Source of the DNA: Sipunculus nudus
Lineage: Eukaryota; Annelida; Sipuncula; Golfingiida; Sipunculidae
DNA: 64,000 nucleotides
NCBI GenBank assembly: GCA_026874595.1
Contig: CM049320.1
Coordinates: 41,798,714-41,862,713 of the forward strand
Reading direction: 5' to 3'
Shown here: positions 3,925-30,041 of the stretch, piece by piece
How positions within the stretch are numbered: the stretch's first letter is position 1
Layout: each line of letters opens with the position of its first letter
The notes under the pieces: generated by a model
What the model was told of the DNA's origin: nothing
The model's input: the letters and a program-made list of their open reading frames with translations, nothing else
Database searches by the model: none
Position numbers and translations under genes: made by a program

Positions 3925-4045
3925 TAATGCGCGATAATTATCGCGTGAGATCGAGATACTATCGCGTGGGAATGAGATAAATATCGCATGAAAACGAGAT
4001 AATTATTGCGTGGGAATGAGATACTAACGCGTGGGAACGAGATAA
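3925..4045. repeat. About 21-bp minisatellite, right array (inverted)
   Basis: About six units reading ATCGCGTGGGAATGAGATA, the reverse complement of the left array at 1487-1800. It sits immediately inside the right inverted end of the 1453-4078 element. Confidence 0.8.
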
Positions 4046-7856: not shown

Positions 7857-8226
7857 TGTTACGAAGACAAATTGTTGAGGGGAAAAATCCTGAGCCGATC
7901 CCGGTTTCGAACCCAGGTCGGTGGCGTACAAGTACGGCGTATCAACCGCTTCGCTCCGCTTTTATGTCACCCCGTAACACACCCTCTAATTATCCCAGGA
8001 GTCACACTTTGGTGAGCTTATTCCCTGGACCACAAAGTTTTATCGTCACATCGGACAAGCCCCTAATTTGTTACGAAGACAAATTGTTGAGGAGAAAAAT
8101 CCTGGGCCGATCCGGGAGTCGAACCCAGGTCGGTGGCGCACAAGTCCGGCGAACAAACCGCTTCGCTGGCAAAGCAAGCTTCACTAGCCAGACAGTTCGG
8201 TCCGCTTTTATGTGCACCCCGTAACA
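7857..8226 (-). mobile_element. Miniature LTR element (TRIM-like), single unit
   Basis: Two LTRs (7857-7979 and 8069-8226) bounded by TGTTACG and CGTAACA flank an 89-bp interior. The 4-bp sequence ATAG at 7853-7856 is repeated at 8227-8230 as a target duplication. Read on the minus strand, the interior begins just after the LTR with a GGGGCT..GTCCG stretch resembling a tRNA-Pro primer site. The longer LTR has a tRNA-like block with a Pol III A box at 8158-8168 and a perfect B box (GGTTCGACTCC, minus strand) at 8115-8125. No coding capacity, as expected of a TRIM. The LTRs differ in length and by roughly 8 percent, so the copy is fairly old. The same family forms the array at 15574-16554. Confidence 0.8.
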
Positions 8227-13308: not shown

Positions 13309-15573
13309 GACGGCGACTCACTCAGATTTATCTGTACACTGGGATAGCCGCGTCCTTGTTTTTGTTTACTTATGACCCTTAAGGAACAACAGGAGATTTT
13401 CATAACCTGTTACGGCTAGCCCTGGGATTTGCTCACCTCTAAGAAAAATCACCCCAGACCATTTGATGGCTTCAATTACATAAAGTCCACCGAATTATGC
13501 AAAAAGAAAAATTTATGTCATGAGAATTGAAGCAGACATTTACATCATCAAGCTTTAATAAGGCGGATGACAAATTATACCAGTAAAACCTGGAGGGGAA
13601 AAAAGAAACGTCAGCTTCAGTACATATTACAGGGCACCCTAAATTCGTCAAGAGGATGAGTACAAAAATTCTGCAGAAATTGGATGGACGATTCCGGGCT
13701 GATTAAAATCATTTGATTGGTTCACAAAACAAAGTAATACGGAATATAGTCCAAGGTTGCGCCCCAGATTGAGTATAAAGCGTTTTACTGTACTGTATGG
13801 TCAACTATCTATGAATACTCTATATGATAAATCATCGTAATATAGTGCATTTATTACTTGCGGATGTCATCATTTTGAATGTCCTGTCAAAGGGAAGGAC
13901 TGTTAGCTCATCTAACAAACAGCTTATAAAACTTTGTGAAGCAGAGCAAGTTGATTGTTAGGACGAGGTGAGATCGTTGTCCGAAGACTTTAAGTTTCTG
14001 AAATGTTTCAATCGGATGTAAAATTTTCCATTGCATGCATGATACGTGCACATTCGTGGAGCAACCGGGACCACCTATATTCTGACTGGCAGAGCTGACT
14101 TGTGATGCCATCGGGTTGGTAAGCAGTGACACAGCATACATTCGTTTTATGTGCATGCCAACGTTTTACGTCAATCATATATGATCTACAGTATTATAAT
14201 AATGTGACTAAACTGTAAAGCTGGCACGCATATATGTGTATGCGGCAGCTAGAAAACGGACGCAGTTTCAATAAAAATAACGTTGGTGACTTGATTCACC
14301 TTTTTGCCAAGGCTGACCGACTTAGCTAAATCGCGTTTACTGAAACTGACTTATGTCGCGGAAATATGTCAGCCGACTTGGGGGACGTTTCGGTAAAATG
14401 TGACTCAAGCCCTACGCATTCTTACTGAATCGGAGCCCTTGCAGGAGTATATATGTGTGATTTGTCCGATTCCTAGCTGCATACTGCATACGTAATTCAT
14501 ACGCATATATATCGATTGATGCCTTAATGGCTAGAATAAGATACGGAGCCAACAAGGCTGAGGTCTTTCCTCCCCGAGTTATTTTCTGGGTTGTATATTT
14601 TGACTTCTGATATTTTTATTGGTTTTCTGAACCTAAAGGCTGCTAATCAAATTTATTTATTTTTTTTTCAGTTGAATTGTTATTTCAACAGAAACGCTTT
14701 TAGATCAATATCCTTTTCTTCATGAAATGCTTAAACAAAAACGTGTCAAGCCAGTTTTTTTCGGAAATATCACAATTAATTTTTCACCATGAATCGAGTT
14801 AGCGAATGAGACAGGGATAAATGTCTGTATGTCTGTTTGGCCTGGATTAAAATATTTATTATCCCTTTAGACGTTTCATTTGCTTTTCTTGTTTTAAAGA
14901 TTTGCATCAGTTGGCCAATTGGAATAAACGTTGTTCTGTCCGTTGAACTGAATCATGTAGATTGTACGTATTCCATCAGGTGATTGTCAGGGCCATTGAT
15001 AATCACATCTGTCTACCTGCACCAGGCCATAAATCGCACCGAGCGCTGCCGGCAACAAAACAAAGCCCTCAGAGCATCCTTAAGAGTTAGTTGGTTCACT
15101 AAAACAGAACTAAGAGCACGCACAAATACACTGACTGCTAAAGAGTACATAATAGAACAATCCGTCAACACTTACAACAGGACACAGCACATAAACTCAA
15201 TGCAAATCTTAACCAATGAACACAAGTATACAATAGCCTAAATAAATTCGTTTCTCCTCTAGACATAATCCTACCAAATCCTATGTAAAACGAGACTAAT
15301 ATCACATCCACTAAGCTAAAGGACTGGTTAATTCACCTGGATTTGGGCTTACACCATTAAATATTTATAGATCTTATCTTTTCATCTCTTTCATTTCGTA
15401 ATAGTCTTTTGTCTTTGAGCCTTATAGTTAACTATTCATTTATATATCACCTTTATCTTGGCTGAAGGGGGAGGATCCATGATTTCCTCCACAGCTCTCG
15501 AGCGCCATCTGTTCCTTCTTTAGTATTATTTAGAAATCTGGTGCCGGTCCATGTTAATGGACATAGTTTAGGT
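13309..15573. other. No recognisable gene or repeat
   Basis: Mostly AT-rich. A CA-rich stretch at 14984-15241 has an 85-codon plus-strand frame (INRTERCRQQNKALRASLR near its start) without known homology. GC is slightly raised at 14250-14450. Nothing else stands out. Confidence 0.5.
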
Positions 15574-16554
15574 TGTTACGAAGACAAATTGTTGAGGAGA
15601 AAATCCTGGGCCGATCCGGGAGTCGAACCCAGGTCGGTGGCGCACAAGTCCGGCGTACCAAACACTTCGCTAGAACAGCAAGCTTCACTAGCGAGACAGT
15701 TCGGTCCGCTTTTATATCATCCCGTAACACACCCCCATTTAAGAGCGTTCTGCTATCAGAACAAGACTAATTATCCCAGGAGTCACACTTTGGTGAGCTT
15801 ATTCCCTGGACCACAAAGTTAACCGTCACGTTAGACGAGCCCCCATTTTGTTACGAAGGCAAATTGTTCAGGGGAAAACATTGGGCCGATCCCGGATTCG
15901 TACCCAGGTCGATGGCGCACAAGTCCGGCGATCCAACCGCTTCGCTAGCAAAGCAAGCTTCACTAGCGAGACAGTTCGGTCCGCTTTTATATCATCCCGT
16001 AACACACCCCCATTTAAGAGCGTTCTGCTATCAGAACAAGACTAATTATCCCAGGAGTCACACTTTGGTGAGCTTATTCCCTGGACCACAAAGTTAACCG
16101 TCACGTTAGAAGAGCCCCCATTTTGTTACGAAGGCAAATTGTTCAGGGGAAAACATTGGGCCGATCCCGGATTCGTACCCAGGTCGGTGGCGCACAAGTC
16201 CGGCGATCCAACCGCTTCGCTAGCAAAGCAAGCTTCACTAGCGAGACAGTTCGGTCCGCTTTTATATCAACCCGTAACACACCCCCATTTAAGAGCGTTC
16301 TGCTATCAGAACAAGACTAATTATCCCAGGAGTCACACTTTGGTGAGCTTATTCCCTGGACCACAAAGTTAACCGTCACGTTAGACGAGCCCCCATTTTG
16401 TTACGAAGGCAAATTGTTCAGGGGAAAACATTGGGCCGATCCCGGATTCGTACCCAGGTCGGTGGCGCACAAGTCCGGCGATCCAACCGCTTTGCTAGCA
16501 AAGCAAGCTTCACTAGCGAGACAGTTCGGTCCGCTTTAATGTCACCCCGTAACA
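15574..16554 (-). mobile_element. Tandem array of the miniature LTR element: four LTRs, three interiors
   Basis: Four 156-bp LTRs (15574-15729, 15849-16004, 16124-16279, 16399-16554) alternate with three 119-bp interiors (15730-15848, 16005-16123, 16280-16398), a 275-bp period. All LTRs run TGTTACG to CGTAACA. The 4-bp AGGT at 15570-15573 is repeated at 16555-16558, so the whole array sits in one target duplication and there are none at the inner junctions. On the minus strand each interior starts AAA then TGGGGGCTCGTC (TGGGGGCTCTTC in the second), and ends in a purine-rich ATGGGGGTG before the next LTR. LTRs 2-4 are almost identical to each other, while LTR 1 differs from them at about 10 percent of positions, mostly at 15574-15685. 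The array probably grew by unequal recombination. Confidence 0.85.
15881..15950 (-). other. tRNA-like Pol III promoter block inside an LTR (representative)
   Basis: On the minus strand of LTR 2, an A box TAGCGAAGCGG (15937-15947) fits TRGYNNANNNG. A B box GGTACGAATCC (15894-15904) differs from GGTTCGANTCC at one base. Their starts are 43 nt apart, as in a tRNA gene. A D-arm-like stem GCGA/TCGC is intact. The acceptor and anticodon arms do not fold, so this is not a functional tRNA. TATAAAAG lies about 40 nt upstream at 15984-15991, and a TTTT run follows about 15 nt after the B box. Equivalent boxes occur in the other LTRs: 15662-15672/15619-15629, 16212-16222/16169-16179 and 16487-16497/16444-16454. 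Confidence 0.7.
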
Positions 16555-17420
16555 AGGTATATAAGACAAAAGGGCTAAACAGCATAACAAGATCAATATT
16601 TTCGCAACATTTGTTCTTTAATGGGTAACTGTATGCTAACAATTTTAAAGTGAAATATGTAAATATTTCACATTGAAAATAATTATAAGATACGATAGTG
16701 ATGTTTTAAACTATGTAAGCAATAGGTACCTTCATATATGCATGTGTAACTAGCTTTCCTTTCTAAAAATTGACATTAAGTAAATATGATTTTTCTTTAA
16801 GTTTTAATGTTATAACGTGTTTAAGAATTAAGCCCTAAAATAAATAAGCCATTTGATGTTATCAGTGTTCTATATTACCCACAGTCAACGAAATTTAGCC
16901 GAGCTGAGTGCCCCAATTATCAAGCAATGATATTCATATTATATTAAATTGTATTGCACTGTGCGTGACAAACTGTACACGCGTGTTCATGAAGTCTTTT
17001 ATACAGTTTTACCAACTGCCGCAAGAGGACACTACCCGTACGCTGATTTCCCTTTTGTTAGGGCGTTATAAATGTTCTGCTGATATTGGAATATAAGCAT
17101 ATATTAAGCATATATATATAAGCATGGAAGTATATAAAAAAGGTAACAGTAACTTCCCTGAAAAAGGGTCATCCAAGGGGGGGGGGGGAAATCCGTTTTT
17201 TAAATAGCCTGTGTAACGAATATTAAGTTGTTTAAATAGTTTTATTTGAGATCAATGTATTTTCACTTTAGATACCGAGTAATTAAACAATTTAAGACAA
17301 AAATATATGTTTATAATATTATTATCTGTACCTATAAGGTTATGTTAATTTGCACGTTTGTGAAACCATGGTCTATTTTTTATAACACGGGGACTTCAAG
17401 CTTTATGTATATACCCCCTC
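16555..17420. other. No gene seen; G run
   Basis: AT-rich sequence with a run of about 12 G near 17177-17188. Short open frames (62 and 60 codons) have no recognisable motifs. Confidence 0.6.
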
Positions 17421-25639: not shown

Positions 25640-26546
25640 TTATTTCATGCCAGTTTAGAAACTAGTAACAGTAGCAAGAGGCCTATATCAATGACAAATA
25701 AAGCTGCATATTGGTATATACTGCATGCTTACATAATTACAATTAAAATTTATATTTAAAGTCGAACGACTCTACCATATCTTTAACAGGCATATAAATT
25801 ATCTATATATTTCATTTCATTCAACAGTAAATTCCAAATGTAACTTGGCTATGAAAATTCATTTTTTTTGTCAAAACGTACTCCAAGAAGTTAGATGTTA
25901 TCTCCGGAATCAATTTCCGTTCCACATATATATTAAAAACCTTCAACCAAGACTTCGATTTTATTTCGAATTAAGTGAACACGGTGACGTGGCAGTACAC
26001 GCTATAGGTTCCGGATCAATTCAAGTATAAGTAGATGTGCCTTTTCATCGGCTTTTCGAATTGTTTTGTTCTTTTCCCAGGTTAAGACAAAAAGTGACGT
26101 CATTCTGTTGTGAAAAATAATAAATATTACATAGACTTACGTATATTTATGCAGCAGTTATAAATAACGAGGCTGGTTTTACTCGGGAAGTTTGTCTCTC
26201 CGTCCGTCATGACGGCTTGGCAACCGAAATTGCGTCAGTCGAGACTGCTTCAAAGGATAACAACCACAAAATTTTGTGTTACAACATTTTTCCTAATTTG
26301 TTAGCAACTAACACTCGACCATATAAACCTTTGATGTCAAATACTACCACACAGCAAATATTTTGATCCGACCCTTGGAATGGTTATTTTATTATGACTT
26401 GTATCATGACTCGCAGGCCCTTATTTTAAAAAAGGCCCGAATGTCATGTTGACATGGTTTGAAGAAAAATTGCCTGGGACTTTGTTGGATTTGCTTTCAT
26501 CATGTTATCGTTGAAAAATTTTATGGCACGATTTGCTTCAGATGTT
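25640..26546. repeat. 0.9 kb tandem duplication, copy 1
   Basis: Repeated almost exactly at 26545-27457 with an offset of 905-911 bp and only a few percent divergence. The 61-codon frame at 25845-26030 is retained in copy 2 with three amino-acid changes, but has no recognisable motif. The shared junction word is near GATGTTA. Confidence 0.85.
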
Positions 26547-27457
26547 ATTTCATGCCAGTTTAGAAACTAGTAACAGTAGCCAGAGGCCAATATCAATGAC
26601 AAATAAAGCTGCATATAGTTATATACTGCATGCTTACATAATTACAATTAAAATTTATATTTAAAGTCGAACGACTCTACCATATCTTTAACAGGCATAT
26701 AAATTATCTATATATTTCATTTCATTTAACAGTAAATTCCAAATGTAACTTGGCTATGAAAATTCATTTTTTTTGTCAAAACGTACTCCAAGAAGTTAGA
26801 TGTTATCTCCGGAATCAATTTTCATTCCACATATATATTAAAAACCTTCAACCAAGACTTCGATTTTATTTTGAATTAAGTGAACACGTTGAGGTGGCAG
26901 TACACGCTATAGGGTCCGGATCAATTCAAGTATAAGTAGATGTGCCTTTTCATCGGCTTTTCGAAATGTTTTGTTCTTTTCCCAAGTTAAGACAAAAAGT
27001 GACGTCATTCTGTTGTGAAAAATAATAAATATTACATAGACTTACGTATATTTATGCAGCAGTTATAAATAACGAGGCTGGTTTTACTCGGGAAGTTTGT
27101 CTCTCCGTCCGTCATGACGGCTTGGCCACCGAAATTGCGTCAGTCGAGACTGCTTCAAAGGATAACAACCACAAAATTTTGTGTTACAACATTTTTCTTA
27201 ATTTGTTAGCAACTAACACTCGACCATATAAACCTTTGATGTCAAATACTACCACACAGCAAATATTTTGATCCGACCCTTGGAATCGTTATTTTATTAT
27301 GACTTGTATCATGACTCGCAGGGTCTTTAAGTTTATTTTGAAAAGGCCCGAAAGTCATGTTGACATGGCTAGAAGAAAAAATGCCTGGGACTTTGTTGGA
27401 TTTGATTTCATCATGTTATCATTGAACCATTTTATGGCACGATTTGATTCAGATGTT
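26547..27457. repeat. 0.9 kb tandem duplication, copy 2
   Basis: Direct repeat of 25640-26546, including the landmarks GTTTAGAAACTAGTAACAG, CCGTCCGTCATGACGGCTTG and TTTATGGCACGATTTG. It ends at GATGTTA (27452-27458), the same word found at the junction of the copies (26541-26547), consistent with a simple head-to-tail duplication. Confidence 0.85.
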
Positions 27458-30041
27458 AGAATGCCACACACATAGAGAGCCTTACTCTGTTTTCAGTTTA
27501 TTTCACTGGCAGGTGAAGCTCTATGACGTCACAATGATAACGTGACTTGTTTCGTTCCCGACGCGCAAATTCTGTTTGAATCAGTGCTTGTCGATTTCAT
27601 TGTCGATTTCAACAACAACAACGCCGATACGGCTCGGGCTCATACTTGTAAAAATAAATGCTAGTTATTTTTGCATTGATACACAATCTGAAAGAAAGAA
27701 CAAAAATGTACACCTTGTAAGGAACCTCTCAGCCATTATACATTCTATCCAAAAAAAAGTTTTTAAAAGAAATAATTAAGAGGTATTTTCGGAATCTAAA
27801 CAACAGAAATAAAGCATACGTGATCTTTTTAATGTGCATTTCCTTAATTTTGCTTCATATTTTATACTTATAACAGCTAAACATTCAGAAGAAAATGTCT
27901 GTGTGAAGTAAATGTGATGCCTTTTGTCTCATTAATGTATACTACAAATTCTACCATAATCAATAACATTGCAGCAATAATATGTCTTGCACTTGACATA
28001 AAATCTATTTTAAATGATGTGCTCCATGGCTCAATAATGATATATCTTTATTTTCTCATATATAATTTGTTTTTTTGTTGTTGTACCTTTGAATGCTTTG
28101 TACTCCGCGTAATTATTAACTAGTTGTTTCGTACAAATGCTGTTACATTGGCATTTTCTCTATTCTCAAGATGATATCGTTGCATACTGTTTCTGTAAAA
28201 TGTTTAATTTTTCATTCATGTTTTATATGGATTCTGAATAACTTTAATGATATAAAATTTTCAATATATATGTAACAGTATAAACTTGTTATCATGACAT
28301 ATTGAAAGTATAATACCTTCATGTTCGATATCATGTGTAAAATAGATAATAGATCTTATTATAATTTCATAACTTATATTATATATTCCAGTACGAACTC
28401 CATTAAACTTGATGTCGGGGAAAATATTTAAGATGTGTTGCATTGCATACGCGTTGTAAATTGCTTTCATATATATTATTAACCTTATTTACCTATATTT
28501 ATTCACTTGATAGAAGGCTAATATTTTGCTATTGATATAACTATATAGTTAAACTGTATACAGGTCACTGTTTATTCATTTATTATTAAGTTTTATAACT
28601 TACTCTTAATTTTTCACGTGACTGTTAATAAATTAAATAAATAAATAAATGTGTTATGTGTTTATATATGTTTGATCTAAAGGTCTGAGTCATTTATATC
28701 CAGAATAAATGCATTCATTCATTCATTCTTTCATCTGATAAACAAATGGAACAAAAAAGGTTACAAATTTTGGTCCTGTTTTGGGCAGTTATTGATTTTG
28801 TACACGCGAAAGAATATTACGCGGGTGATATAGGCAAAAAAAGAATTATTTCAGACATATTTAGAGCCATTCTGTCCGTTTATTGTTACGTTTATACTTT
28901 TCCCGGAGTTACAGTTTGATATATGGTCTGTGCGGTTTCGTCTTTTTATGTGTTCTATTGATTCTTTTATATGTAGAGCGACGTTTCATACATTTTATGT
29001 AAAGAATGATATCATTTTAATGTGTTCGTTTGTTGTTGCTGTAGCCCAAAGACTCCGCGATTCCGAACCGCTACGTAAACGCCCGCTTTAACACACACCT
29101 ACAACTTAAAAAAAAAATAAAAATTGATATAAATTGCGGTTTTTCTTTATATGCCTGTACGTTACATCGAACGATTTCTTATATAGAATCCGGTGTATTT
29201 ATTTCACTAGCTGAATGTTGATCAATTCCCTGCATTTATAGAAACCAGGAACTAGTTATTTTGACCAACTGATTTTCTTCTACCGTCAGGTTTTCTCCTC
29301 GTTGAATCTGTTATATCTGTGCATTGAAACTGGCTACCACGTCAAGAATGCCGCAGTCTTCTATGGTTTTTTGCTCAGCAATAAGACGCTTATTTCGATA
29401 AGAAAACGTTTTTAGGCTGGATATAGGAGTAACGAAAATCATAATGTTCAGAATCGACCCCCGTTCCTCTTCCATAAAATAAGAGTTTAATTTCTGTATG
29501 CAGGTTAAATGTGAACACAGTGTCGAGCTGCTTTATTTTTCAGCTGAATACCAATATCCCCCGGTGCTTTCAAATATAAAATACTTTTTGTTTTCTTATT
29601 ATGTCATCTTTATTTTGTAGATATCATTAAATATTGTTAATCAAAATTATCGCCGTTATTATTGCTTATTATAAAACTACTAATACTTCTACTAATAACA
29701 CTGCTAATAATCATACTATAATTCACGGGAATCTGTTTGTTTGTCTGTCTGTCCGGATTCATTCGCACGCTAGGGATCGCACGGTCGTCAAACTTCGTGG
29801 GAGGGTGCATCTTGGTCCGGGGAAGAACGAGTTTATATTTTTTAGGCGTTTGGTAAAGAAATGGCCTCAAAATCGATAAAAAATATTATGGGTTTAATAC
29901 CTGCGCTGTGCCATGGCCATTCTCACATAGTGCGCCCACGTCGTCCTCAATCTCCTCTCGCTAACCAATCAAATCAAACCTGACATAGTCTGCCAAACAT
30001 TCACTACGCGTCGGCCTTTTCTAAGCAGTCCGCTAGGTCAA
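27458..30041. other. No gene seen; short tetranucleotide repeats
   Basis: AT-rich. (AAAT)n at 28635-28652 and (ATTC)n at 28712-28731 follow an AATAAA word, possibly an old LINE tail, but no LINE frame is recognisable. 29727-29880 starts with TTTGTTTGTCTGTCTGTCCG, a word common in family X-like repeats, but alignment to that family is not clear. Confidence 0.45.

Follow-up and report, generated by a model that had tools for sequence, protein, structure and literature searches.

Positions 15574..16554 of the window, that is, of the whole 64,000-nucleotide stretch of Sipunculus nudus DNA analysed here, hold a tandem TRIM of the Helenus type on the minus strand. Its layout is LTR-INT-LTR-INT-LTR-INT-LTR with a unit of 275 bp: four LTRs of 156 bp alternate with three internal regions of 119 bp, all of them non-coding, and the array is flanked by the target-site duplication AGGT, found at 15570..15573 on the left and at 16555..16558 on the right. 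The element's sense strand is the minus strand, and PBS, PPT and boxes all read that way. On this strand each of the four LTRs has the form TGTTACG...CGTAACA, and the internal regions (3/3) start with AAA-TGGGGGCTC, the beginning of the PBS, which we take to be the complement of tRNA-Pro, and end with AAATGGGGGTG.

The LTR at 15849..16004 (minus strand, TGTTACG...CGTAACA, 156 bp) contains the interval 15881-15950, in which the sequence-only reading had placed a tRNA-like Pol III promoter. This interval does enclose an exact A box, TAGCGAAGCGG, at 15947-15937 and a B box with one mismatch, GGTACGAATCC, at 15904-15894. Upstream of the A box lies TATAAAAG (15984..15991, minus strand), and past the B box comes a TTTT run at 15875..15878 (minus strand), a candidate Pol III terminator. 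The PBS, TGGGGGCTCGTC, is of the tRNA-Pro type and begins 3 nt past the LTR (15834..15845, minus strand), while the purine-rich AAATGGGGGTG at 15730..15740 (minus strand), the PPT, stands directly ahead of the next LTR. This LTR, at 15574..15729 (minus strand), has an A box with one mismatch, TAGCGAAGTGT, at 15672-15662 and an exact B box, GGTTCGACTCC, at 15629-15619. The two others, also on the minus strand, each combine an exact A box with a B box carrying one mismatch: at 16222-16212 and 16179-16169 in the LTR at 16124..16279, and at 16497-16487 (TAGCAAAGCGG) and 16454-16444 in the LTR at 16399..16554.

A second element, at 7857..8226 on the minus strand, has the TSD ATAG and an 89-bp internal region. 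One of its LTRs measures 158 bp (8069-8226, minus strand) and contains, within 8115..8168, an A box with one mismatch, CAGCGAAGCGG, at 8168-8158 and the exact B box GGTTCGACTCC at 8125-8115. The other (7857-7979, minus strand) measures 123 bp and is without some 35 bp upstream of the A box; its boxes, within 7903..7956, have one mismatch each, the A box GAGCGAAGCGG lying at 7956-7946 and the B box GGTTCGAAACC at 7913-7903.

An A and a B box in the LTRs, on the sense strand and with starts 43 nt apart, had been claimed from the letters alone, and this is what is found in 6/6 window LTRs, with 0-1 mismatch in each box. Could such pairs have arisen by chance? As a control, the window was subjected to 100 dinucleotide shuffles, and both strands were scanned with a spacing of 25-90. 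An exact A box with a B box of at most one mismatch was found 0 times in every shuffle, and pairs in which neither box had more than one mismatch averaged 0.02 (maximum 1). With up to two mismatches in each box the mean rose to 3.76 pairs, so a lone two-mismatch pair would mean little. When each of the six window LTRs was shuffled 2000 times, no pair within one mismatch per box appeared. The tRNA-like A/B pair of the window LTRs is real and far beyond chance.

The window has other repeats. Outside LTR elements, an exact A box, TAGCTAAGTGG, and an exact B box, GGTTCGAATCC, lie with starts 38 nt apart at 47232-47184 (minus strand), and perhaps belong to a tRNA-derived SINE or a tRNA relic. At 36330-36277 (minus strand), an A box with one mismatch and a B box with two, starts 43 nt apart, perhaps mark another SINE. 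Two direct repeats about 900 bp apart occupy 25640-27458, one of 300 bp at 98% (spacing 905) and one of 123 bp at 91% (spacing 911); they are likely to be the product of a tandem duplication. Tandem repeats of a 21/43-bp unit, TATCTCGTTCCCACGCGATAG, are found at 1486-1799 and 3933-4044 in opposite orientations.

The family and its published relatives

In the 1.43-Gb genome (153 contigs) the TRIM is a multicopy family. With the 275-bp unit as query, at least 94 matches are obtained, 40 of 3416 candidates having been scored. Exact LTR-end/PBS junctions number 818 genome-wide, and an exact B box combined with LTR end and PBS is found 703 times (reversed control 0 for both); the tRNA-like motif and retroviral-type replication signals are thus joined hundreds of times. 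The exact 18-nt tRNA-Pro-type PBS occurs 529 times genome-wide (reversed control 0). Seventy loci were sorted, giving 25 of the LTR-INT-LTR form and 3 full solo LTRs, the rest being tandem, rearranged or partial. Matching 4-6-bp flanks border 36/70 loci, including the solo LTRs L061 and L063, in a set where several loci overlap and some matching flanks are AT repeats. Pattern scans of further viral-contig and genome-contig collections gave 0 matches. Two loci considered as autonomous elements were rejected: the frames of L133 (two copies 2.85 kb apart) are short and repeat-like, with no gag-pol likeness by eye, and the same is true of L134.

Some junctions are unusual. At L083 the PBS runs on for about 45 bases, after which LTR sequence begins again. 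Judged by eye, these bases may be further complement of tRNA-Pro; an Rfam search of L083 did not call a tRNA. Read-through into the tRNA primer is a possible origin of this junction. In L095, its near-identical copy L096, L102 and L117, LTR and PBS are followed by LTR sequence in inverted orientation, and in L093 and L122 the sequence re-enters the LTR near CCGGGAT, a motif common to PBS and LTR.

How tRNA-like is the module across the family? Among 116 family LTRs selected by similarity, both boxes are exact in 48 and the spacing of 43 is found in 104. Three accessory features had been reported along with the boxes, and each stands in part. The upstream TATAAAAG is present in 3/6 window LTRs, the commonest family form of this TATA-like site being CATAAAA (97/116 LTRs). 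The length of the D-arm-like stem depends on column 74: a T there gives 4 bp, and an A, the most frequent base (57%), gives 3 bp. A run of at least four T within 35 nt past the B box is found in 86/116 LTRs; it is shorter in 11, and in the other 19 no B box is recognisable. A scan with tRNA models, proposed as a way to the ancestral tRNA, led to none: ARAGORN finds 0 tRNAs in the window and 0 in 26 family loci, and in 20 family loci the Rfam tRNA families give no match even with E values up to 10. The Rfam search of the window returned no match at gathering score, and at L008 there was one match to the tRNA-like mascRNA, with a score far under the gathering threshold. An array of tRNA genes is ruled out, since no tRNA model (ARAGORN, Rfam) recognises the element.

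Elements of this kind already have a name. Kojima (2024) described TRIMs with tRNA-derived sequence in the LTR as Helenus and the Pol III group as TRIMp3 (PMC10886601), animals included, so the suggestion that a tRNA-like equivalent in an animal may be undescribed does not hold. Helenus is known from fungi, one plant and six animal phyla, with sizes of 311-1263 bp and, in animals, 4-bp TSDs; bivalve families include tRNA-Pro PBSs, and Helenus LTR-11_DR of zebrafish forms tandem arrays (PMC10886601). In the same paper, a dependence of animal Helenus on Gypsy is proposed from PBS similarity, functional tRNAs are hardly ever found, and Pol III activity is not proven (PMC10886601). The Helenus claim is restated in one sentence of a 2026 meeting report (PMC12859917). 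The window TRIM shares with Helenus its A/B boxes inside the LTR, PBS, PPT, 4-bp TSDs and tandem arrays: it is a short two-LTR TRIM with no coding capacity, its PBS comes directly past the 5' LTR and its PPT ahead of the 3' LTR. It is best filed as a further Helenus member, set beside the published families by description, not by sequence.

Three other systems invite comparison. The plant TRIM Cassandra, as presented in a section of PMC7215508, also has a Pol III promoter and terminator within its LTR and forms tandem LTR/internal-domain arrays, but its LTR carries 5S rRNA sequence, whereas the boxes of the window TRIM are of the tRNA type, with no Rfam match at gathering score in the window. 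According to Kojima, Cassandra is the sole TRIMp3 with validated Pol III transcription (PMC10886601). The parallel that had been drawn between Cassandra and a putative tRNA-like type 2 promoter in TRIM LTRs is supported. The biv-TRIM of bivalves is likewise an animal TRIM with solo and tandem forms, but, as a passage in PMC6934838 puts it, no canonical PBS is identifiable in it, and the term "polymerase III" is absent from the main text of that paper. The microRNAs of BLV also involve Pol III transcription within a retroviral element, although, in the portion of PMC3911700 that deals with them, these units make pre-miRNA hairpins and are not tRNA-like LTR promoters.

Pol III, Pol II and the role of the boxes

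LTRs, PBS, PPT, 4-bp TSDs, boxes, a T run and the lack of poly(A) signals past the A box can all be read directly in the DNA. With good confidence, we interpret the family as a Helenus-type TRIM (TRIMp3) of about 430 bp, non-coding, with a tRNA-like Pol III promoter in its LTRs, the cycle proposed here and a Gypsy helper; Pol III transcription of the family is likely. In this cycle, TFIIIC would bind the A and B boxes in the LTR, and Pol III would start between the TATA-like box and the A box, about 30 nt past the former and about 12 nt ahead of the latter. Part of the transcripts would continue through the weak T4 of the 5' LTR, and termination would come at the T run in the 3' LTR. The resulting RNA would have an identical R region at both ends and would need no poly(A) signal. 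Its reverse transcription may be primed by tRNA-Pro, and the proteins may be supplied by an autonomous family of Gypsy elements in this genome.

The sequence-only reading expected the boxes to be better kept than the rest of the LTR, and this is so in one sample of two. The anchored sample consists of all 67 LTR-end/PBS junctions on contig C1, picked regardless of boxes; columns were counted in the 59/67 copies with at least 125 of 156 columns, and the anchor columns were left out. Here the consensus is matched in 95.0% of cells in the boxes vs 89.9% elsewhere (one-sided p = 0.024), with 0.960 vs 0.902 in non-CpG columns (p = 0.015) and 0.925 vs 0.862 in CpG columns (p = 0.054). Among the 116 similarity-selected LTRs, the difference between box columns and the others is not significant (p = 0.13). 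Treated as plain 11-mer windows, the boxes do not stand out: they come 26th (A) and 60th (B) among the 137 of the anchored sample, and of the 146 windows in an earlier set of 59 LTRs, 22 rank above A and 94 above B. An exact B box lies within the allowed window at 37/67 C1 junctions. Exact A boxes are found in 60% and exact B boxes in 61% of the 67 C1 copies. The average for 122 other windows is 35%; 4 of them equal or beat A and 2 equal or beat B, in a scoring whose degenerate letters favour the boxes over other windows. In the similarity-selected LTRs, a comparison of shared with private variants shows no difference (all Fisher p > 0.3). Taken as a whole, the evidence for box constraint is mixed and gives modest support for a promoter.

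Conservation is at least equal to that of the boxes in U3, TATA-like box included: the TATA columns of the anchored sample rank with its best-conserved ones (0.949), and U3 has few shared variants (3 in 57 columns). These figures, together with the non-significant result for the boxes in one of the two samples, speak for Pol II driving the TRIM from the TATA-like box, the tRNA-like module then being an inherited relic that is now just a part of R/U5. This reading is at odds with the spacing of 43 kept in 104/116 LTRs and with a B box that varies mainly at its degenerate positions. A TATA at such a position also suits some Pol III genes, TATA-like boxes at -31/-24 being described for the 4.5SH/4.5SI genes in a passage of PMC10137851.

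The transcript ends bear on the same choice. In the anchored C1 sample the conservation of the T-run columns averages 0.944, and that of the three columns ahead 0.62. AATAAA or ATTAAA occurs downstream of the A box in 0/116 LTRs, which argues against Pol II, and upstream of it in 3/116. The T run and the absence of these signals past the A box fit the ends of a Pol III transcript. Besides the modest box conservation and the lack of a recognised tRNA fold, two observations on the transcript ends count against Pol III: the T run of the 5' LTR must be read through, and a T4 immediately ahead of the A box (25/67 C1 copies, 33/116 similarity-selected LTRs) would lie within the expected start of the Pol III transcript, the latter being a point in favour of Pol II. 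In the Helenus internal regions, T4 is found in 7/78 copies in sense and 20/78 in antisense, which T content alone allows. We regard transcription by Pol II from the TATA-like box as improbable.

A role of the module other than that of a promoter, namely as a TFIIIC-binding or RNA-structure element in insulation, packaging or dimerisation, is very improbable: the persistence of A and B boxes in a module that no tRNA model recognises would suit such a role, but no sequence feature demands it, and the T run and the absent poly(A) signal are more simply explained by transcription. A SINE array mobilised by LINE-type target priming, which the tRNA-like boxes, small size and lack of a coding region might recall, has practically no probability left, being already refuted by the TG...CA ends of the terminal repeats, the properly placed PBS and PPT, the 4-bp TSDs and the solo LTRs.

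Helenus/Gypsy fusions and a candidate helper

Which autonomous element could serve a Pol III-driven TRIM? Contig C1 carries 42 exact 18-nt PBSs, 29 of which are not at one of the Helenus LTR ends located by the two junction searches, and 20/29 were fetched. Twelve of these sites belong to one other LTR family, a Gypsy; one (L157) joins a Helenus LTR to this family's leader, two have a Helenus LTR followed by unrelated sequence, one has a Helenus internal region, and four fit neither family. In L174, a Gypsy copy with coding remains, a SCAN domain comes first, then the integrase domains, then reverse transcriptase with RNase H. An integrase placed before the reverse transcriptase is the mark of Gmr1. 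In frogs, SCAN is found in Gmr elements only, according to a passage of PMC4131045. From its integrase-first order and SCAN domain, the Gypsy family looks Gmr1-like, a placement made from domains.

As in Helenus, the Gypsy LTR starts with TGTTAC, after GGAGGGGGAG, and ends with GTAACA; its LTR-end/PBS sites number 198 genome-wide (control 0). The two families are alike in their LTR ends (TGTTAC...GTAACA), their PBS and a similar style of PPT, but have neither LTR nor leader sequence in common. In the two Gypsy LTRs read, a TATA and an AATAAA/ATTAAA signal are present, and no A/B pair with fewer than five mismatches in all is found.

A search pattern made of the Helenus LTR end, the 18-nt PBS and GCTTA, the start of the Gypsy leader, hits 11 sites (8 + 3; control 0). 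They make up ten loci, spread over eight contigs, the junction at the PBS being presupposed by the pattern. The C1 case was read in L175 (C1:5978900-5984900) and the nine others in L176-L184, in stretches of 371-561 bp. The Helenus LTR ends at the PBS in 9/9 of the latter, and the leader match runs from the leader's first base in 8/9; L184 has no leader match by BLAST, and shows some leader-like bases and then Gypsy LTR sequence. The fused Helenus LTR is complete in L176, L178, L179, L180 and L183 and almost complete in L184, whereas L177, L181 and L182 have just a part of it. In L175, the only fused copy read beyond the leader, pieces of integrase and reverse transcriptase follow, then the Gypsy 3' LTR, and the open frames are short pieces. 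The median pairwise difference among the fused LTRs (9/10, L182 left out) is 16.2%, against 14.4% for random C1 Helenus LTRs, so the fused copies look like separate events and not like one copied fusion. L159 was rejected as a fusion: aligned with the Gypsy leader, its downstream part reaches a score of 10, less than the 16 that marks the 95th percentile of random scores. In L159 and L164, a Helenus LTR and full PBS are followed by neither Helenus sequence nor the Gypsy leader, possibly the trace of other partners.

What might have produced these copies? Plus-strand strong-stop DNA reaches just as far as LTR and PBS do, which makes strong-stop transfer the simplest source of the fusions. Helenus plus-strand strong-stop DNA would be transferred at the PBS to Gypsy minus-strand DNA, in an intermolecular step. 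On this reading of the junctions, Helenus and Gypsy RNAs were probably copied in one particle, and the fusions suggest the Gmr1-like Gypsy as the likely helper. On balance we lean towards the view that a TRIM transcribed by Pol III shares particles with a Gmr1-like Gypsy transcribed by Pol II, and that plus-strand transfer at the tRNA-Pro PBS common to both has repeatedly set a Pol III LTR before Gypsy sequence.

The fused copies could instead stem from recombination between integrated DNA copies, with no strand transfer in a shared particle, an origin that we hold to be doubtful. Tandem Helenus arrays are common, and a passage of PMC6934838 ascribes such arrays in other TRIMs to DNA recombination; moreover, Helenus internal sequence precedes the fused LTR in L183 and L184, and the purine tract of Helenus does so in L178. 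Recombination would have had to act on only about 18 nt common to both families at the junction, and it accounts less readily for a Helenus LTR that is complete in five loci and almost complete in L184, and for the position of the junction at the PBS, this last being imposed by the search pattern.

These fusions set the family apart from Helenus as published: in the main text of PMC10886601, "chimer" and "template switch" occur 0 times, and a literature search on chimeras formed by strand transfer returned none on such fusions, as judged by title. The Helenus/Gypsy fusions go beyond that main text and are the part most worth following. If strand transfer in shared particles is indeed their source, they would amount to an exchange of promoters between polymerase classes that took place in nature, and would point, at the level of sequence, to the helper of a Helenus element. 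Fusions at the PBS would record with which element the parasite shares its particle; the scan for LTR end, PBS and foreign leader is applicable to any Helenus-bearing genome. With a regular T run in its LTR, the family is a clean test case for a Pol III transcript as the template of LTR-type replication.
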